Shown piece by piece: positions 2,681-9,303 of a stretch of 10,021 nucleotides of DNA. The translations under genes and the position numbers were made by a program. The notes beneath the pieces are model-generated. The model made no database searches, was not told where the DNA came from, and was given only the letters and a program-made list of their open reading frames with translations. Every line of letters starts with the position of its first letter. The first letter of the stretch is position 1. Source of the stretch: Gammaproteobacteria bacterium (GTDB lineage Bacteria; Pseudomonadota; Gammaproteobacteria; Chromatiales; Chromatiaceae). The stretch covers positions 1 through 10,021 of the forward strand of contig JAGVUH010000327.1 in assembly GCA_019136395.1 (NCBI GenBank), written 5' to 3'.

Positions 2681-2698
2681 TCAACTCATTAATTTCAT
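2681..2698 (-). pseudogene. Vestigial toxin start after yefM (five codons)
   Basis: The yefM-like gene ends in an ATGA overlap, the usual arrangement with a downstream toxin gene. The ATG at 2698 starts a frame reading MKLMS before a stop. MKL is a plausible beginning for a YoeB/Txe-type toxin, but five residues cannot prove it. The sequence then runs straight into the end of the convergent kinase gene, so the rest of any toxin is gone. Confidence 0.3.
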
Positions 2699-2949
2699 TC
2701 TTGTGCCAGCGGGTGGCTGGACGTCCGTTCCTGTCGGTACTGGGCTATGGAGCGGGCGAGATGCCCGGCATTGGCCGGAAAGCTCAGTAGGTAAACCGTC
2801 TCCATCAGGCTGTTGAAGCTGTCGAGGGACATGACGACGGCATCTTCTGCATCACGACGGGTGATGACCGTGTAATCCGCGTCGGCCGCAACGCGATCGA
2901 GCACTTGCTTCAGTTGATTACGGGCATCGGAGAATGAGATGGTTTGCAT
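2695..2949 (-). CDS. Phd/YefM-family antitoxin, apparently without its toxin
   Basis: The 84-residue product opens MQTISFSDARNQLKQVLDRV, the classic YefM start, in which the N-terminal half forms a DNA-binding dimer that represses its own operon. VITRRDAEDAVVMSLDSFNSLMETVYLL (residues 28-55 approximately) is the family core, and the C-terminal tail (PANAGHLARSIAQYRQER) corresponds to the disordered segment that wraps and neutralises a YoeB-like RNase. The ATG at 2949 gives the canonical start; a TTG at 2961 would add MTFA. Neither has a strong ribosome-binding site. The gene lies 62 bases after the AlbA_2 gene on the same strand and could share its transcript. A toxin would be expected directly downstream, but only 25 bases separate this stop from the end of the convergent kinase gene. 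Confidence 0.9.
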   Translation of the reverse strand: MQTISFSDARNQLKQVLDRVAADADYTVITRRDAEDAVVMSLDSFNSLMETVYLLSFPANAGHLARSIAQYRQERTSSHPLAQE

Positions 2950-3011
2950 GGCAAAAGTCAAACTTATGTTGGCGGACTCGCTGGATAACCGCCCAGGCCA
3001 GGAGGGCCCGA

Positions 3012-4298
3012 CTAGGTCGGAGCGTCACCAGCATGGGCCGAAAAGAGCGTCAGCTTCACCGCCCCGCCCATGTTGACCAGCTCCGGCCGGCGGCCGGACA
3101 GCTCGGTGCTGGTGCGCACCAGGGTCAGGAACCCCTCGCCGCGCGTCTCCATATAGCGGCGCCCGGTGCCGGGGCTCTCGTAATCGCGCAGGAAGCCGGC
3201 GAGGATCTGATTGCGGCGCACGGGCTGGCAACCGGCGTAGAGGTTTTCCTCGGTCAGGGTATTGTGCAGGCCGCCAGGGTTACGGATCTCGATCCGATCC
3301 AGGAACAGGGTGACGATGACCTGGGCGCCGGCGATCTCGTAATCACGATGGGCCAGGGCGTTGACCACCGCCTCCTGTAGCGCGAAGTCGCTATAGGCGG
3401 GCATGTCCACCCGCCCGTAGGCATCCTTCCTGGAGACCGTGCTGACCATCGGGCTGGTCCGCAGATAGGTCATGACCCATTCGATCTGCTCCGTGATCGG
3501 GCCGGTCACCCGTTTTGCATCGCGCGTATTGCCGTCGGCGAAGTCATGATCGTAAACGGCGAGATCGACATATGCCCCGGGCACTTGCTGATCGGGCCGG
3601 TCGGCGAACAGCAGCACGCCCACGTTGGTCGGCCGCCAAGCGCCGTCATCGTCCTGCACCGCCAGCTTCAGATTGCCGAGCAGGCGCTCATAGGACAGGT
3701 CGGAATCGGCCAGGCGGTGATGAAAGCGGCGCTGATAGTAGGTCTCGAAGCGCGTGCGGTTCAGCGCGTCCAGATCCGCCCCAAGCACCGGCCGCTCCTC
3801 GAAAGGCAGCATCAACTGCCGCCGCGCCAGCAGCCGCCCCAACTGTTCCGCTGGAATCGGCGTGCGATGACTGCCGACACGCTTCAGGAAGCGGCCGTCG
3901 CTGGTCTGATGCACATAGAAGCGCGCCCGCGACTCCTGCACCTTGATACAAAGCCGATGGCCGCCGTCGGCGCCCGGCAGCATGACCCAGTCCAGCACCG
4001 GCTCGATGGGCGGCACGCAGTGGGCCAGGGCGCATTGCAGGACGAACTGCTCAAGCTTGCCCCGCTTCCCGGGGTCGATGCCAAGGATGCGGCCCTGATC
4101 ATCGACGCCGAAGACGACCAAGCCCCCTTCGGAATTCGCCATCGACACCAATACCTCGGCGATGACCTTTGGTGCCCGACCCTCCTCGCTGGAGAAGCGC
4201 ACCTGATCGCCTTTGAAGACCACCGCTTTCAGTTCGAGCAGGCTTTCCTCGCCAGCAGCGATCTCGGCAAGCAGCTCGGTTTTGTCTTCGTAGAGCAT
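3012..4298 (-). CDS. AlbA_2 (Schlafen-like) - HATPase_c_4 protein
   Basis: The 428-residue protein joins two domains. The N-terminal AlbA_2 domain, residues about 15-135, has ESLLELKAVVF, the IAEVLVSMANSEGG helix and VVFGVDDQGRILGI; AlbA_2 is the bacterial form of the Schlafen core. The C-terminal GHKL-type HATPase_c_4 domain has ALQEAVVNALAHRDYEIAG, whose EAxxNALxHRDY is the N-box signature, then DRIEIRNPGGL. Such proteins are often named putative transcriptional regulators or RecG-like ATP-binding proteins, and some occur in defence islands; biochemical roles are mostly unproven. Many relatives are longer (about 470-560 residues) with a C-terminal winged helix, which I do not see here. The ATG at 4298 is chosen over an in-frame GTG at 4316; neither has a convincing ribosome-binding site. 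An inverted repeat lies just upstream. Confidence 0.88.
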   Translation of the reverse strand: MLYEDKTELLAEIAAGEESLLELKAVVFKGDQVRFSSEEGRAPKVIAEVLVSMANSEGGLVVFGVDDQGRILGIDPGKRGKLEQFVLQCALAHCVPPIEPVLDWVMLPGADGGHRLCIKVQESRARFYVHQTSDGRFLKRVGSHRTPIPAEQLGRLLARRQLMLPFEERPVLGADLDALNRTRFETYYQRRFHHRLADSDLSYERLLGNLKLAVQDDDGAWRPTNVGVLLFADRPDQQVPGAYVDLAVYDHDFADGNTRDAKRVTGPITEQIEWVMTYLRTSPMVSTVSRKDAYGRVDMPAYSDFALQEAVVNALAHRDYEIAGAQVIVTLFLDRIEIRNPGGLHNTLTEENLYAGCQPVRRNQILAGFLRDYESPGTGRRYMETRGEGFLTLVRTSTELSGRRPELVNMGGAVKLTLFSAHAGDAPT

Positions 4299-4322
4299 GG
4301 TGATAGGACTAGGCACCTGGGG

Positions 4323-4438: not shown

Positions 4439-4768
4439 ACTGTCATTGCTGCTCATCATCGGTTCATCGCCCTGCTGTACCGCGATGACCAGCGAGTGCA
4501 ACCACTGGTTGCACAAATTGGCTGGACTCATAACCTGGCGATTTTCCAGCGCTGCAAGGACCCGCTGGAACGGGAATTCAACCTCCTTATGTCCCGCAAA
4601 TTCGGCTGGTCAAAGAACGTCCTCATCCACCAGATCGACAACGCGAGCTACGAGAAAGCGCTGCTTGGCCAGACCAATTTCGACCAGGCGCTGAAGCCGA
4701 AATTGCGTGCCCAGGCCAAGCTGGCGGTGAAGGACGAATACACCTTCGATTTTCTGGAGCTGGGGTAG
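4439..4768 (+). pseudogene. Fragment of a DUF1016/YhcG PDDEXK-type nuclease
   Basis: The frame from the GTG at 4496 reads MQPLVAQIGWTHN, CKDPLEREF, RKFGWSKNVLIHQIDN and QAKLAVKDEYTFDFLELG. These are the last ~85 residues of the DUF1016 N-terminal domain of YhcG-like proteins, where the usual text is close to LVAQISWSHN and VKDEYTFDFLELGEEH. The frame is open back to 4439, but the upstream codons do not resemble the family. The frame ends in TAG straight after LELG, so the N-terminal half of the domain and the entire C-terminal PD-(D/E)XK nuclease domain are missing. Full-length proteins are about 340-380 residues. A nuclease is therefore not made. Such nucleases are found alongside restriction genes, which fits the restriction fragment 240 bases further on. 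Confidence 0.82.
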
Positions 4769-4789
4769 GGTAGCTAGCGTGCGATGTCG

Positions 4790-5001
4790 GCAGTACCGGC
4801 AGCCACGGCCCAACCTGTCCTCCCGCACCCTCCCGGTGAGCTCAGTGGTTCCCCCCCATGGTGACAAGCGGTAAAGTACCCTCCAACCCCCGCCCTGACC
4901 CCGTTCAAGGTAGAACGGCGACCCCAGCGCGGTGGGCCGACGTTGGCCAGTCGTACCCGCGCCGCCGTCTCACCGTTCCCATGGATTTACCGCCAGGACT
5001 G
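4790..5001. repeat. Duplicated non-coding block, copy 1
   Basis: This ~210-base block recurs at 7647-7855, in the same orientation, at roughly 85-90% identity by eye. No convincing protein is encoded on either strand in both copies. Two symmetrical elements are present: GGCCGACGTTGGCC (4935-4948), a near-palindrome identical in both copies, and CCTGA...TCAAGG around 4894-4910, a hairpin that carries one mismatch here but is perfect in copy 2. In this copy the block ends five bases before the start of the restriction-helicase fragment, so it may be that gene's former leader. Confidence 0.85.
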
Positions 5002-5005
5002 AGCA

Positions 5006-5191
5006 GTGAGCACTCCCTTCTTCGACCAGCCGATCCTCAATTCGCCCTACGCATGTCCCAGCCGCCACTGGGAACTCGACGCCAGCGGCCAGCCCACCCA
5101 ACGGATCATCAACACCCGGCGCCGGGCGGAATTCGTCACCCCCATCCCCAAGCCCCAGAAACAGAAGGGCGCTTCCGGGGCGAGGACGTGA
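5006..5191 (+). pseudogene. N-terminal fragment of a type III-like restriction helicase (Res subunit)
   Basis: The GTG at 5006 opens a 61-residue frame reading STPFFDQPILNSPYACPSRH, WELDASGQPTQRIINTRRRAEFVTPIPKP, then QKQKG before a stop. These are the opening ~55 residues of a DEAD/DEAH-box restriction endonuclease family (the BPTD_3080-like group, annotated as type III restriction or DEAD/DEAH helicase). The family is normally many hundreds of residues long, with Walker A and DEAH motifs, and none of these is present. The remaining bases to the MNT gene (5192-5255) show no homology I recognise. The fragment is the main piece of copy 1 that copy 2 of the duplication lacks. Confidence 0.78.
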
Positions 5192-5255
5192 AGGATAAGC
5201 AGGCGACCATGGAGACCTACCGTGATGATCGACCGCCGATCTCGATTGACACTCG

Positions 5256-5640
5256 ACCACCATTAAGAGGTCAACACCATGCCTGATCCCGTTGCTACTG
5301 ACATTGCCAAGCCGGAACTGGATAGCGCCGCCCGTGCCGTGGTTGCAGCGACCGTCTCCGCCGTCAACCCCGATCAGGTCATTCTGTTTGGCTCCCGAGC
5401 CCGCGGCGATGCTCAGGCGGATTCGGACATCGATCTGCTGGTCATCATGCCAGAACCTTTCACGGCCGCGCGCACCCGGCAGGGCCAGTTGCGCCTGATC
5501 AGGCGCGCGCTGCACGACTGCCGGCTGCCGGTGGATATCCTTCTGTATAGCCGCGATGAGGTGGATGTCTGGCGCGACTCTCCCAACCATGTCATTGGTC
5601 GTTCATTGCGCGAAGGAGTGGCCGTCTATGCAAGACCTTA
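5256..5640 (+). repeat. Duplicated MNT block, copy 1
   Basis: From the leader bases ACCACCATTAAGAGG to the MNT stop codon, this block matches 7874-8258. I count 12 base differences across the 363-base coding part (about 97% identity), clearly fewer than in the non-coding block upstream. The match stops at the MNT stop codon, where copy 1 goes into HEPN and copy 2 into an unrelated antitoxin ORF. Confidence 0.95.
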
Positions 5641-5641
5641 G
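5279..5641 (+). CDS. Minimal nucleotidyltransferase (MNT, MntA-like antitoxin), copy 1
   Basis: This 120-residue protein is a polymerase-beta-fold nucleotidyltransferase. It has a perfect GSx10DxD motif: Gly38-Ser39 followed by Asp50-Ile-Asp52, within GSRARGDAQADSDIDLLV, and a third carboxylate at Asp86 (LPVDILLYSRDEVD). In MntA-HepT (type VII) systems such proteins act as antitoxins by adding AMP to a HEPN toxin; all catalytic residues needed appear present. AAGAGG lies eight bases before the ATG. The gene overlaps the HEPN gene by 14 bases, the standard layout of an MNT-HEPN operon, and the HEPN ribosome-binding site lies within its last codons. A near-identical paralogue starts at 7897; the proteins differ at K11E, T66S, R76H and P120S (copy 1 to copy 2). 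Confidence 0.94.
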   Translation: MPDPVATDIAKPELDSAARAVVAATVSAVNPDQVILFGSRARGDAQADSDIDLLVIMPEPFTAARTRQGQLRLIRRALHDCRLPVDILLYSRDEVDVWRDSPNHVIGRSLREGVAVYARP

Positions 5642-6026
5642 ACACGCACGGCAAATGCTGAAGATGGCAGAGATGGACTTGCAAGCGATTGGCAATATGC
5701 GCGATCCACTTCAATTCGCCGACGCGATTTTCGGATTTCATGTCCAGCAGGCAACGGAAAAACTACTCAAGGCCTGGCTCAGCCTCAGTGGCACCGCATT
5801 TTCTCGCACCCACGACCTGCGGTTACTCTTGGCGCTGGTGGCGGATCAGGATGCGCGGGATATCGCCCCCTTCCGGGATCTGGAGGATCTGACCGACTAC
5901 GGGGTGCAATTCAGATATGACGCGCCATTTGACCTGGAGCCACTGGATCGCGCAAGCCTCATCGCGCGTGTGCAAGAACTGCAGCGGCTCGTGAAGCGAC
6001 GTCTCGCTTCCGCTGAATCCCTTTGA
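5628..6026 (+). CDS. HEPN-domain protein, partner of MNT
   Basis: The 132-residue, largely helical protein fits the PF05168-type HEPN family: FHVQQATEKLLKAWL (37-51), THDLRLLL (61-68) and LTDYGVQFRYDAPFD (88-102). An AAGGAG nine bases before the ATG at 5628 fixes the start, although the frame is open further upstream. Paired with MNT it should be the toxin, or the nucleic-acid-binding half, of a TA or abortive-infection module. I do not find the canonical Rx4-6H RNase motif; the only His after residue 38 is in RTH (60-62). It may therefore not be a typical HEPN ribonuclease, or may use other residues. Its TGA stop falls exactly where VapC-derived sequence begins, so the C-terminal residues could be affected by that junction. 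Length is normal for the family. Confidence 0.9.
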   Translation: MQDLRHARQMLKMAEMDLQAIGNMRDPLQFADAIFGFHVQQATEKLLKAWLSLSGTAFSRTHDLRLLLALVADQDARDIAPFRDLEDLTDYGVQFRYDAPFDLEPLDRASLIARVQELQRLVKRRLASAESL

Positions 6027-6129
6027 TCGGATCATGATTACCACGGCGCCAGAGCATAATGGGATGCTCGCCACCATGGATGGAGTCTTTACCCATTACC
6101 CGGAATTGAACGGACGCATCCTGACTTGA
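6025..6129 (+). pseudogene. VapC (PIN-domain toxin) C-terminal remnant, copy 1
   Basis: The frame beginning GAT CGG ATC (6025) reads DRIMITTAPEHNGMLATMDG and VFTHYPELNGRILT before a TGA at 6127-6129. This is the last ~34 residues of a PIN-domain toxin: DRxIxxTAxxH...LxTxDxxFxxYPEL is the typical C-terminal pattern holding one catalytic Asp. The rest of the toxin is absent and no start exists. The same remnant occurs at 8485-8589 and begins at the same codon, so both copies share the breakpoint. Confidence 0.72.
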
Positions 6130-6358
6130 GCGGACGGCCAGGTCCGGGTGAGCATCAACGGCGTCGACGTGTTACTGATCAAAGAGCAATCAGCCGCCAA
6201 TGAACGCAAAAATCGCAACTGAAAGAGATGTTTGAGCCCAGACCCGCCTTCACCAGGCAGGGGACAGGGCGGATCGACTCAAGCCGATGATTCGTCGCGT
6301 CCATTTACGTTCATGGGCGGCTGAACCACTCTGTCAGGGATATTCCAGCAGAGCCCGG
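6130..6358. other. Gap between VapC scar and DUF1028 gene; one short open remnant
   Basis: In frame with the VapC scar, 6130-6222 reads ADGQVRVSINGVDVLLIKEQ and then SAANERKNRN before TGA. It looks like coding sequence of some lost gene, since it is polar and beta-like, but I cannot name a family and there is no start codon with a ribosome-binding site. From 6223 to 6358 I see no gene, no terminator and no strong repeat. Confidence 0.4.
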
Positions 6359-7209
6359 TCATCGCGCCCGCAGCCAGAGCGCGTGTTTCACCCGCATATC
6401 CGCGAGCACCTCAAGATCGATCAGGTCGTCGTCGCGGATTCGTTCGTCGTAGTTCTCCCAGCCCATGAAATCCCGCAACGCGCCCAACAATCCCGCGTCG
6501 CACTGTCCGTCGGCGGCGCCCTGGTAGAAACCCCGGGTCCGGAGAATCTGCTGGAGTTCGCCAGCGATGGCGGGGTCGATCTTTACGAGTTGCGCGGGAT
6601 CGCTGCGAAAATAGGTCAGACGGCAGAGGGCGTACAACCGCTCCAGTTCATCGATCGGCCGCGCATGGTCGCAAACCGACAGGTCCACGAGACGATCGTC
6701 GAAACCGCCGTAACCGCCCCCGGCCCGCACCACCTTGAGCGCCGCCGACTGCTGCCCCCGCCGATCGCCGCCGTTGGCCTGCCCGGCCCGCAGGGCCGCC
6801 AGCAACCGCTCCGCCAACGACCCCGCGGTATTCTCAAACCCCTGTACCATGGACTCCACCACTTGCGGACCGCGCAATTCAGACCCTGCCGATCGCCGGC
6901 CCAGTCGAAGCAGTGGGCACCGGTAAAGCTGGCAGCCCGGCCCTGGGCATCGACGATGCCGACCTGACGATACGCACGCTGCGGGTCGCTGGCCGTCAAG
7001 ATCTCCAGCGCCTGCTGGGGCGTGGCACCGTTTTCCAGCAGGGCCAAGCCACGCGGACCAAAACCGGTATTGCAGTAGGATTGGGTCGCCACCGCCCCGA
7101 CCCCCGTCCGCGCAAACGGGATGGAGGCGCCGACATTGGGAAATTTGGATTGCACGGCCACTCCCAAGTCGCCGTTGGCGGGATCATAAGCAACGATGGA
7201 AAACGTCAT
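6359..7209 (-). pseudogene. DUF1028 protein gene with a frameshifting deletion
   Basis: The first reading frame starts at the ATG at 7209 (GAGG five bases upstream) with [38 protein letters not shown] and [10 protein letters not shown]. These are hallmarks of DUF1028, a family with an Ntn-hydrolase-like fold. It runs to FDWAGDRQG, where relatives continue roughly YAAQGNILAGPQVVEAM. Here only 11 bases (6872-6882) lie before [20 protein letters not shown] resumes in another frame; about 33 would be expected, so roughly 22 bases seem lost. The second frame then runs intact to 6359 and includes the C-terminal peptidoglycan-binding-like domain ([31 protein letters not shown]). Apart from this lesion the gene looks well preserved, so the break may be recent or a sequencing/assembly error. 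Its metabolic role is unknown. Confidence 0.88.
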
Positions 7210-7481
7210 GAAGCCTCTCATTAGCCCTTGTGTTGAGAGTATTGGCCATCCACGCACTCACACGGATAGGAAATCCAAGCCACCCTGAGCGCCCAGGTTG
7301 GCTCGGGAGAGGACGATAGCGGGGGCCGGATGGGTGGTCAATATCAACCAGCGGGGCTGACGGCCGTCGGGGGCGGGGCAGGCGCGCGCGTTGCGGGGTG
7401 CGGGGGCTCGCATCCGCGGTGCCGCGTGCCGCCGGGAGATGAGTGGGATCGCCCCGCTCCAGACCCTTGCCCGACATCGTG
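7210..7481. other. GC-rich gap between the DUF1028 start and the decarboxylase fragment
   Basis: Apart from the candidate reverse-strand promoter near 7313-7341, I see no gene here. The stretch 7360-7440 is very rich in G and C with short GC-alternating runs, which keeps several frames open without a recognisable product. The codons that should follow the decarboxylase fragment are not recognisable in any frame. Confidence 0.5.
7313..7341 (-). promoter_or_regulatory. Candidate sigma-70 promoter for the DUF1028 gene
   Basis: On the reverse strand TTGACC (7341-7336) and TATCGT (7318-7313) are spaced by exactly 17 bases. Five of six -35 bases and four of six -10 bases match consensus. It would give a leader of about 95 bases before the ATG at 7209. 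Confidence 0.45.
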
Positions 7482-7652
7482 TGGACTGCCCAGCTTCTTG
7501 GGGAAACTCCAGATATCCCAGCCACTGACAATCGGCGGGAAGCCGCCGAGATACAGGGCATGGGTATAGTTCCCCCGCTCCGCGCCGAACCGCACGGGGA
7601 TCACCTGGCCGCTCTCGGTATAGTCGCCGAACCCCGCACGGTCAGCGCTACT
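7482..7652 (-). pseudogene. Internal fragment of acetoacetate decarboxylase
   Basis: The reverse-strand frame reads [40 protein letters not shown] and [12 protein letters not shown]. This matches the middle of acetoacetate decarboxylase-family proteins: YxExGQVIPVxxxGxxGxYTHxMFLDxxPPIxxGRExWGFPKKLASP. The adjacent Lys-Lys pair includes the Schiff-base lysine of the family. Only about 57 residues are recognisable; the expected protein is about 245 residues or more. The 5' side of the gene stops at the boundary of the duplicated non-coding block (7647), so the duplication or insertion of that block probably cut the gene. After FPKKLGSP the frame decays. Two substitutions, GG for DD/DE and W for R/E, hint at loss of constraint. 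Confidence 0.75.
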
Positions 7653-7855
7653 GGCAGCCACAGCCTCTCCTGCTCCCCGCGCCCTCCCGGTGCGCTCAGA
7701 GGTTCCCCCCATCGGAGACAAGCGGTAGAGTACCCCCCATCCCCCGCCTTGACCCCGCTCAAGGTAGAACGGCGCCCCCAGCGCGATGGGCCGACGTTGG
7801 CCAGTCGTACCGGCCCCGCCGCCTCACCGTTCACATGGATTTACCTCCAGGACTG
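7647..7855. repeat. Duplicated non-coding block, copy 2
   Basis: This matches 4790-5001 in the same orientation. The near-palindrome GGCCGACGTTGGCC recurs at 7789-7802. CCTTGA (7747-7752) and TCAAGG (7759-7764) form a perfect six-base stem with a six-base loop. The block ends at GGACTG, after which 18 unrelated bases stand where copy 1 has the ~254-base restriction-fragment segment. Confidence 0.85.
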
Positions 7856-7873
7856 GCGTGCGGGCCTTCGGCA

Positions 7874-8258
7874 CCCACCGTTAAGAGGTCAACACCATGC
7901 CTGATCCCGTTGCTACTGACATTGCCGAGCCGGAACTGGATAGCGCCGCCCGTGCCGTGGTTGCGGCGACCGTCTCCGCCGTCAACCCCGATCAGGTCAT
8001 TCTGTTTGGCTCCCGAGCCCGCGGCGATGCTCAGGCGGATTCGGACATTGATCTGCTGGTCATCATGCCAGAACCTTTCACGGCCGCGCGCAGCAGGCAG
8101 GGCCAGTTGCGCCTGATCAGGCACGCGCTGCACGACTGCCGGCTGCCAGTGGATATCCTGCTGTATAGCCGCGATGAGGTGGATGTCTGGCGCGACTCTC
8201 CCAACCATGTCATTGGTCGTTCACTGCGCGAAGGAGTTGCCGTCTATGCAAGATCTTA
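7874..8258 (+). repeat. Duplicated MNT block, copy 2
   Basis: Matches 5256-5640, including the leader with AAGAGG, the full MNT gene and the AAGGAG and ATG of the former HEPN start. Homology ends at the MNT stop codon. Confidence 0.95.
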
Positions 8259-8259
8259 A
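7897..8259 (+). CDS. Minimal nucleotidyltransferase (MNT, MntA-like), copy 2, without HEPN
   Basis: At 120 residues this is 116/120 identical to the copy at 5279-5641, and the GSx10DxD motif (Gly38-Ser39...Asp50-Ile-Asp52) and Asp86 are unchanged. Seven of the 11 coding base differences are synonymous, which suggests the protein has been kept under selection since duplication or that the copies were homogenised. No HEPN gene follows; instead the next ORF is an AF2212-like antitoxin fused to the first codons of the old HEPN gene. It could still act on the HEPN made from copy 1, serve as extra antitoxin, or modify something else. The ribosome-binding site (AAGAGG) is the same as in copy 1. Confidence 0.94.
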   Translation: MPDPVATDIAEPELDSAARAVVAATVSAVNPDQVILFGSRARGDAQADSDIDLLVIMPEPFTAARSRQGQLRLIRHALHDCRLPVDILLYSRDEVDVWRDSPNHVIGRSLREGVAVYARS

Positions 8260-8473
8260 GAGCTACGAAGCCGTTTACCGCAAAGGGCACTTGCATTGGT
8301 TGCATGAACAGCCGCCTATCGATTCGGCGCCGGTCATTGTGACCATCCTGACCGAACATCCCGATTCCGCCAAGCGCCGTAGTCCACCGGCTTCACTCGC
8401 CGGCAAGGTCGACATTTTCGGTGACATTGTGTCCCCAATCGTGGACGAAGAGGATTGGGAATGTCTGAAATAA
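8246..8473 (+). CDS. AF2212/VapB-like antitoxin, chimeric N-terminus from HEPN gene
   Basis: The 75-residue frame starts at the HEPN start codon: MQDL comes from the HEPN gene, and from Lys5 on the sequence is unrelated to it. KSYEAVYRKGHLHWLHEQPP followed by VIVTILTE has the xYxxGxxxxL beta-hairpin pattern of small AF2212-like antitoxins that pair with PIN toxins; the C-terminal LAGKVDIFGDIVSPIVDEED plus WECLK resembles the toxin-binding tail of such proteins. The likely original start would have been an ATG directly before KSYEAV. Translation now depends on AAGGAG within the end of the MNT gene, nine bases before the ATG, so it is coupled to MNT copy 2. Its own toxin gene, which overlaps its end by 13 bases, is internally deleted. 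The family assignment is by pattern and is tentative. Confidence 0.72.
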   Translation: MQDLKSYEAVYRKGHLHWLHEQPPIDSAPVIVTILTEHPDSAKRRSPPASLAGKVDIFGDIVSPIVDEEDWECLK

Positions 8474-8589
8474 TCCTGCTGGTTGATTGGATCATCATTG
8501 CCACGGCCCTAGAGTAGGACGCGATGATCACCACCGTGGATGGAGTCTTTACCCATTATCCGGAATTGAACGGACGCATCCTGACTTGA
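8461..8589 (+). pseudogene. VapC (PIN toxin) gene with internal deletion, copy 2 scar
   Basis: An ATG at 8461 overlaps the antitoxin gene and reads MSEIILLVDWIIIATALE, then a TAG at 8515, then DAMITTVDGVFTHYPELNGR before a TGA at 8587. MSEIILLVD fits a VapC N-terminus (beta strand plus first catalytic Asp). WIIIATALE...FTHYPELNGR is the C-terminal end, parallel to the scar at 6025-6129. The roughly 90 central residues of a PIN domain are missing and a nonsense codon is present, so no toxin is made. The two scars match at about 85% of bases by eye from the GAT codon onward. Confidence 0.72.
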
Positions 8590-8621
8590 GGAGCAATGAT
8601 GGCCGCGAAGTTGAAGAGCAT

Positions 8622-9303
8622 GTGACGACGACTAAAAACGGCTTCTCGGCCAAGAGCCTTGAACGGACCCTCAGGACGCGGTATCGCGTGGCCTGGGGTC
8701 TGTTGAAACGCTTTCGGGTCGCGATGGTGCGCGCCGAACGCGCACCCCTGTCGGGTACCGTCGAAGTGGATGAAGCACTGGTCGGGGGTCAAGCATGATG
8801 GCAAGATAGGTCGTAGTGCAAAAAAAGCGATGGTTCTGTACGGCTTATAAATCAAGCAGCCTAAGGGCTATGGTCCTCAGGATGCGCCAGGTCGCCGATG
8901 CCTCGGACGTCAGCCTGCGTCCTTTCGTGTGCGATACGGTGGCCCCGGGATTCCACGTCCATACCGATGCCACTGGAGTGGTTACAGCCGGTTAGCTCAG
9001 AGCGGCTACGTCCATGAACGGACCATCATGAATACCTCCGACGATCCGGCGCATGTCGCCATGCCTGGTGTTCATCGCGTTGCCAGCTTGCTCAAGCGAT
9101 GGATTCTGGAAACCCACCAAGGCTCGGTGTCAGATGAGCACTTACAAGCTTATCTGGAAGAATTAAATTTCCGCTTTAATCGCCGTACCTCCAGCCGTCG
9201 AGGACTTGTCCTTTACCGCTTACTGGAACAGCACGCCGTGACAGACCAGGTAACCGAGAAGCATCTCATCCATGGCCATGACTGGCGGAAACACAAGATG
9301 TAG
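8622..9303 (+). mobile_element. Decayed IS1595-family (ISXO2-like) transposase
   Basis: The transposase can be followed across several frames. TKNGFSAKSLERTLRTRYRV, LSGTVEVDEALVGG (first catalytic Asp) lies in the frame ending at 8798. VKHDGKIGRSAKKAMVLYGL then stop (8848) then IKQPKGYG is shifted by one base at a G-run near 8784-8788. RMRQVADASDVSLRPFVCDT, APGFHVHTDA (second Asp) is in the third frame. WSGYSRLAQSGYVHERTIMN, HRVASLLKRWILETHQGSVS and LEELNFRFNRRTSSR return to the second frame and run to TAG at 9301. There are thus at least three frameshifts and one in-frame stop, and the N-terminal zinc-binding domain is missing. I could not identify terminal inverted repeats or a target duplication. 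The element is not active by itself. Confidence 0.88.

Follow-up and report, generated by a model that had tools for sequence, protein, structure and literature searches.

The 10,021-nucleotide stretch analysed here (contig JAGVUH010000327.1 of assembly GCA_019136395.1, a gammaproteobacterium of the Chromatiaceae; hereafter the window) contains a locus in which an MNT gene occurs twice, followed once by a HEPN toxin gene and once by the antitoxin gene of a VapC-type module. Comparison of the window with itself by blastn revealed three long direct repeats in equal order and orientation: a non-coding block (4786-5001 and 7641-7855; 186 of 216 positions identical, 86%, with one gap, E 1e-68), the MNT gene together with 22 upstream bases (5257-5640 and 7875-8258; 372/384, 97%, E 0), and the 3' end of a vapC gene (6023-6130 and 8483-8590; 94/108, 87%, E 1e-32). 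A second repeat search agreed on these three. Next in rank among the self-matches come a terminator-like palindrome of 29 bases and pieces no longer than 30; thus, the three long repeats are not due to chance. The duplication of this three-part segment, which a preliminary description of this DNA had claimed, is real, and the intervening DNA indeed differs between the copies as was stated there. The spacer from the block to MNT measures 255 bases in copy 1 (5002-5256, including the start of a restriction gene) and 19 bases in copy 2 (7856-7874), and MNT is followed by a HEPN gene in copy 1 as opposed to a 75-residue open reading frame (ORF) in copy 2 (Table 1).

Genes behind MNT in the two copies

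By its motifs, copy 1 is classified as a class II HEPN/MNT pair, the class defined by PF05168 and PF01909 with a HEPN protein devoid of RX4HXY (available part of PMC7641770); the canonical RX4HXY is confined to class I HEPN proteins according to the available part of PMC11586414. The MNT protein scores above the PF01909 cut-off and carries GSX10DXD at residue 38, and the adjoining HEPN protein reaches 48 bits against a PF05168 cut-off of 22, with no R-x4-6-H in a motif scan. Among nine HEPN relatives scanned in the same way, six (P0241, P0243, P0244, P0247, P0249 and P0250) share an R-x4-H motif at 114-119, a place at which the window HEPN carries Gln 119. We do not read this motif as catalytic because it lies elsewhere in P0246 (from 108) and is lacking in P0251 and P0253; the substitution by Gln 119 could still matter. 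Judging from the family, copy 1 should continue to act as a HEPN/MNT pair in which MNT silences HEPN. A further HEPN relative, P0245 (8 member sequences), leaves the family after ...YDTPFD with an unrelated end; its locus may be one more case of rearrangement or of a frameshift.

Copy 2 has lost the HEPN gene except for the first three codons (Met-Gln-Asp), which continue in frame as the antitoxin of a VapC-type module. The DNA from the MNT end and HEPN start of copy 1 onward (5628) reads ATGCAAGACCTTAGACAC, the corresponding DNA of copy 2 (8246) reads ATGCAAGATCTTAAGAGCTACGAAGCC, and the related antitoxin gene of Chondrocystis (AP018284) starts with ATGCTTAGAAGCTACGAAGCG. In the 120 antitoxin relatives listed of 398, the shared stretch is preceded by Met-Leu in 116, by Met-Phe in one, and by Met-Gln-Asp-Leu, as in the window, in three (P0121, P0122 and P0123). 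This comparison of N-termini places the splice in CTTA, where it provides MNT with a TAA stop codon and sets the antitoxin in frame behind the HEPN ATG. The three clusters with the same splice, in which 2-3 of 75 residues are unlike those of the window, contain 3, 4 and 19 sequences (26 in all) located on other contigs, so that a one-off assembly chimera is unlikely. The preliminary description had labelled this ORF AF2212-like, for which we found no basis: it matches no Pfam or NCBIfam family, and its relative P0198 matches no Pfam family either. An AlphaFold model of the antitoxin has low confidence (mean predicted local distance difference test score 66).

The antitoxin is one of an unnamed family whose members are encoded ahead of a VapC-like gene in other genomes. 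Its residues 4-75 are 45-49% identical in L119-L124, which are among nine loci in 8 of 296 Bacteroidota genomes with relatives of the antitoxin, and up to 78% identical in database clusters without the splice. In Chondrocystis, the antitoxin gene and a PIN toxin gene (PF01850) have 13 bases in common. According to tblastn, a VapC relative overlaps the end of the antitoxin gene at four of the nine Bacteroidota loci (L120-L123) and is partial at L119, with none next to the antitoxin at L124, L126 and L127; at L125, which has a weak antitoxin relative, it lies 4 bases behind. The VapC relative next to the antitoxin in L023 is a PIN protein (PF01850, 48 bits), and the frame after the antitoxin in a Geminocystis plasmid match starts VapC-like and soon breaks up. 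Within the nine loci, the vapC tail of the window matches the vapC genes of L120, L122 and L123 (E 5e-9 to 2e-8) and weakly that of L125 (2e-5); among plasmids, it matches Chondrocystis only (50%, E 0.006). Since the antitoxin precedes vapC elsewhere and the tail matches those vapC genes, the antitoxin and the vapC tail of copy 2 are parts of one module type.

Copy 2 thus has an antitoxin ORF beside MNT in place of HEPN, and of vapC only the first 22 bases and a 3' end with an in-frame stop codon. The downstream partner had been described as exchanged; something was indeed gained, but the gain is a second antitoxin beside a broken vapC, and no new toxin partner. Copy 2 is most likely a toxin-less two-antitoxin remnant, in decay or near it. 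Its products would be MNT and a VapC-type antitoxin, which at most neutralise the HEPN protein of copy 1 and VapC toxins encoded elsewhere. We regard it as rather doubtful that copy 2 is a working toxin-less operon in which the VapC antitoxin is translated from the start that served the lost HEPN gene and selection keeps both antidotes against HEPN and VapC toxins that are encoded elsewhere or arrive on mobile elements.

Table 1. Features of the two copies of the locus (positions in the window).
Feature	Position	Strand	Evidence
Non-coding block, copy 1	4786..5001	+	blastn, 86% to 7641-7855; restriction-gene fragment 4 bases further on
BPTD_3080-type restriction endonuclease gene, N-terminal fragment	5006..5191	+	NF046055, 51.7 bits (full-length cut-off 800), profile positions 1-50 of 970
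22 bases 5' of MNT copy 1, common to both copies	5257..5278	+	blastn; ribosome-binding-site-like AAGAGG seen by eye
MNT copy 1, 120 residues, GSX10DXD intact	5279..5641	+	PF01909, 41.8 bits; GSRARGDAQADSDID at residue 38
HEPN gene, class II type, 132 residues, 14-base overlap with MNT	5628..6026	+	PF05168, 48 bits; aligned over full length with 13 relatives
vapC 3' end, copy 1, joined to HEPN gene	6017..6130	+	ATCCCTTTGATCGGAT at 6017, identical to part of the Chondrocystis vapC DPFDR stretch; 87% to 8483-8590 from 6023
Non-coding block, copy 2	7641..7855	+	blastn
22 bases 5' of MNT copy 2, including AAGAGG	7875..7896	+	blastn
MNT copy 2, 120 residues, four amino-acid differences from copy 1	7897..8259	+	PF01909, 42.1 bits
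Chimeric antitoxin ORF, 75 residues; codons 1-3 as HEPN start, remainder VapC-type antitoxin; 14-base overlap with MNT	8246..8473	+	N-termini of 120 relatives; alignment
vapC first 22 bases, overlapping antitoxin stop	8461..8482	+	ATGTCTGAAATAATC shared with Chondrocystis AP018284
vapC 3' end, copy 2, in-frame stop; vapC middle missing	8483..8590	+	blastn, translation

Proposed order of events

The vapC remnant of copy 1 had been described as starting at about 6022. The homology between the two tails does start at TTGAT in both copies, but the vapC-like DNA of copy 1 begins six bases earlier, within the HEPN ORF. This ORF ends in GCT GAA TCC CTT TGA (SAE-SL-stop), and vapC DNA read in another frame appears to make up its last two codons and its stop. 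The Chondrocystis vapC gene reads GATCCCTTTGATCGGAT, the codons of DPFDR, and we ascribe the HEPN end to vapC DNA because ATCCCTTTGATCGGAT is identical to letters in this stretch. An ending SAES(L/F) was found in only three of 70 HEPN relatives: P0241 (SAESL, 98% identical to the window HEPN), P0248 (SAESL, 88%) and P0242 (SAESF, 86%). SAESF is the outcome expected if the vapC proline codon changed silently from CCC to CCT. Four other relatives (P0243, P0244, P0246 and P0247) exceed the window HEPN by four residues in length and have other endings. The shared endings suggest that the join between HEPN and vapC is common to relatives 86-88% identical and hence older than the split of the MNT copies (97%).

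The MNT copies share 116 of 120 residues and differ by 7 silent and 4 amino-acid changes (dS 0.078, dN 0.015, ratio 0.2), with a divergence of 0.149 in the block and 0.142 in the vapC tail. The flank rate predicts 35 amino-acid changes against the 4 seen (Fisher p 2e-8), and 12.6 silent changes against the 7 seen, which are not significantly fewer (Fisher p 0.15, Poisson p 0.067). A single age of duplication combined with selection on MNT would explain this pattern. We rejected gene conversion as a requirement for the high MNT identity, as the silent divergence is not significantly under the flank level. The preliminary description would have been refuted by MNT copies no closer to each other than to MNT proteins elsewhere, and here the outcome is ambiguous: they are closer when set against the other compared relatives (P0003-P0020, at most about 91% identical, P0003 at 90%) but not against P0001, identical at 119 of 120 residues to copy 1 and at 117 of 119 aligned residues to copy 2, nor against P0002 (118/120). 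P0001 looks like an allele near the common ancestor of both copies. When it is taken as near-ancestral, one amino-acid change falls on copy 1 and three on copy 2; given these low counts, MNT copy 2 was probably under constraint as well, at least up to the loss of HEPN.

We consider it somewhat better than even (roughly 0.56) that the locus was duplicated with the HEPN-vapC join already in place, and that the HEPN ORF was then replaced by the antitoxin ORF in copy 2. The ancestral order would have been block, restriction fragment, MNT, HEPN and vapC 3' end, that is, a class II HEPN/MNT pair with a HEPN gene already running into the end of an adjacent antitoxin-vapC module. After the duplication of the segment holding this row, the HEPN ORF of copy 2, from codon 4 to the stop codon, would have been replaced by the antitoxin ORF and the first 22 bases of vapC. 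The 5' join falls within the letters CTTA, which are shared, and the 3' one at the TTGAT of the earlier scar; such joins suggest end-joining or template switching at short shared sequences rather than a site-specific recombinase. Since the 5' join puts the antitoxin in frame behind the HEPN start codon, the antitoxin would be translated from this start, which overlaps MNT by 14 bases. Integron-type cassette exchange was rejected, as inspection by eye, with no program test, noticed no attC-like core at the joins.

The MNT copies, being 97% identical, are closer to each other than to the 90% identical relative P0003; their separation is therefore probably more recent than the branching of the lineages that seem to have the join. 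Because the join probably predates the duplication, replacement of HEPN by the antitoxin is favoured over two deletions that arose independently: the ancestor of copy 2 would have had no antitoxin after HEPN, and the tail start common to both copies would be partly inherited, which removes the need for two deletions with ends no more than about 6 bases apart. Several points weigh against this order of events. The join in P0242 and P0248 is deduced from the protein ends, and the pairing of P0003-type MNTs with P0242- and P0248-type HEPNs is assumed from similar levels of identity. A natural HEPN gene ending by chance in ATCCCTTTGA would allow the join to be recent, and partial gene conversion between the MNT copies could make them look younger than the duplication. 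Replacement also requires a donor antitoxin-vapC module, which was not seen, and the donor side of the 3' join shares at most about one base.

No outside donor would be necessary if a row of MNT, HEPN, antitoxin and vapC had been duplicated, after which the antitoxin and the larger part of vapC disappeared from copy 1, and HEPN and the central part of vapC from copy 2, making the exchange only apparent. Remnants of both modules do lie in each copy, namely the vapC tail after HEPN in copy 1 and the HEPN start codons before the antitoxin in copy 2. Yet both deletions must then end within about 6 bases in a vapC gene of about 400 bases, and the HEPN-vapC join is seemingly common to HEPN relatives 86-88% identical and older than the copy split. 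Moreover, a four-gene row was not seen, though few places could show one: tblastn found neither MNT nor HEPN relatives at any of the nine Bacteroidota antitoxin loci. We therefore see reciprocal loss as possible but on the unlikely side. Import of copy 2 from a related strain that already had the chimera would move the exchange elsewhere and dispense with a duplication in place. The presence of the chimera in three other sequence clusters speaks for import, as do the decayed genes around the locus and the IS1595-type transposase remnant that follows it; direct evidence of transfer is absent, and the equal order of block, MNT and scar fits local duplication equally well, which leaves import improbable in our judgement. 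An artefact of assembly or binning is highly improbable, given copies that differ by 3-14% and an antitoxin splice that recurs in three clusters from other contigs.

Surroundings and occurrence of partner exchange

The region is full of gene pieces. The block of copy 1 is preceded by a fragment of a DUF1016 gene (4496-4768), which the PADLOC candidate family PDC-S02 matched over about positions 100-188 only. Farther upstream, a Phd/YefM antitoxin gene (2695-2961, minus strand, PF02604) lies beside a Schlafen AlbA_2 gene (3012-4316, minus strand). After the vapC tail of copy 1, a short stretch at 6131-6225, VRVSINGVDVLLIKEQ, resembles by eye a piece of a Phd-type antitoxin. Between the copies, a DUF1028 gene is split over two frames (6359-7257, minus strand; profile positions 1-113 in 6616-7257 and 119-193 in 6359-6877), its second part running into a peptidoglycan-binding domain, and a fragment of an acetoacetate decarboxylase gene (about 7476-7643, minus strand; PF06314 profile positions 60-116 of 238) abuts the block of copy 2. 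The vapC tail of copy 2 is followed by a broken transposase gene of the IS1595 family (ISXO2-like; 8590-9303), recognised by PF12762 on the ORF at 8929-9303 (profile positions 85-153); the ORF at 8487-8798 has no Pfam match. The restriction-gene fragment between block and MNT in copy 1 adds to these pieces, and the non-coding block itself matches no Rfam family at the gathering threshold.

Wider searches returned few relatives of the locus. MNT relatives 64% identical carry the names Candidatus Thiodictyon and Chromatiaceae, which makes a purple sulfur bacterium or a close relative of one the likely source of the locus. A scan of genome contigs with MNT gave only one Bacteroides locus and one locus in a Chloroflexi metagenome-assembled genome, and the search of plasmids gave three cyanobacterial records at 31% identity. 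The DNA from 4790 to 8590 matched 18 plasmid records on the acetoacetate decarboxylase fragment and one on the restriction fragment, with none on the block, MNT or HEPN; neither of the two Chromatiaceae plasmids searched gave a match. Viral contigs showed no match for MNT, the block pattern, the antitoxin, HEPN or VapC, nor an exact match for a 24-base piece of the block. Solved structures include only remote matches for MNT and none for HEPN. The antitoxin profile found no match in 400 Chloroflexota genomes, a result of little weight, and a search of E. coli with a PfkB kinase also found none.

To see what follows MNT in other genomes, as the preliminary description had proposed, 201 genomes of Chloroflexota (phylum inferred) were searched with MNT; 61 matched, with 150 places among the matches listed, and 90 of these were examined. 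An ORF was counted as HEPN-like when it started from 60 bases before to 250 bases after the MNT stop and was matched by an iterated profile with E up to 0.01. Such an ORF lies next to MNT at 70 of the 90 loci, and in 63 of the 70 it starts at or before the MNT stop when the first start codon is taken. Three of the other 20 loci have HEPN elsewhere in the stretch and 17 have none, two of which break off within 71 bases. The antitoxin family of copy 2 was found at none of the 90. The surveyed MNT proteins are only 30-43% identical to that of the window; therefore, the survey addresses the general rule and not close relatives, and it lends partner exchange no support as such a rule. Cassette exchange around a constant MNT core, as had been proposed, is thus better supported than its rivals for this one locus, through the splice at the HEPN start codon, its recurrence in other sequences and a HEPN-vapC join that seems older than the duplication, but it is not shown as a mode of evolution. 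Set among many decayed genes, copy 2 gives the impression of a rare rearrangement rather than of a new general mechanism.

Comparison with known systems

The available part of a 2009 survey (PMC2701414) describes HEPN-MNT as a strictly unique pair that never occurs in other toxin-antitoxin combinations apart from domain fusions, and our literature search, going by titles and the openings of abstracts, returned no title on MNT partner exchange. The present locus offers a base-level example of how such a strict pair can break, in which the toxin ORF was seemingly swapped for a foreign antitoxin ORF while the antitoxin frame and an MNT stop codon were kept. If the chimera is functional, it would represent a naturally occurring operon that has no toxin but two antidotes, each from a different type of system, and would make it possible to test directly whether MNT is retained on its own account.

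As in class II HEPN/MNT systems, MNT of copy 1 with its GSX10DXD motif is followed by an overlapping PF05168 HEPN gene without R-x4-6-H; unlike in these, the last codons and stop of HEPN apparently come from a vapC remnant, and copy 2 has no HEPN. An MNT partner with the same catalytic motif is also found in the class I, type VII HepT/MntA systems, from which the locus differs by a score of 35.3 bits against a cut-off of 60 with the MntA model NF047752 and by a HEPN protein in which a regular-expression scan found no RX4HXY. The antitoxin-VapC module of Chondrocystis AP018284 and L120-L123 resembles the second ORF of copy 2 with the vapC start and tail, including the overlap of the antitoxin stop with the vapC start. 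In contrast to that module, copy 2 takes its start codons from HEPN, has MNT as the upstream gene and carries a broken vapC. Partner swapping in type II systems, as described for Panacea antitoxins in the available parts of PMC8832971 and PMC10440598, likewise places a component of one module beside a new neighbour. The Panacea antitoxin domain neutralises many toxins, whereas in the present locus an antitoxin gene has acquired a further antitoxin beside it and no longer has its toxin there.

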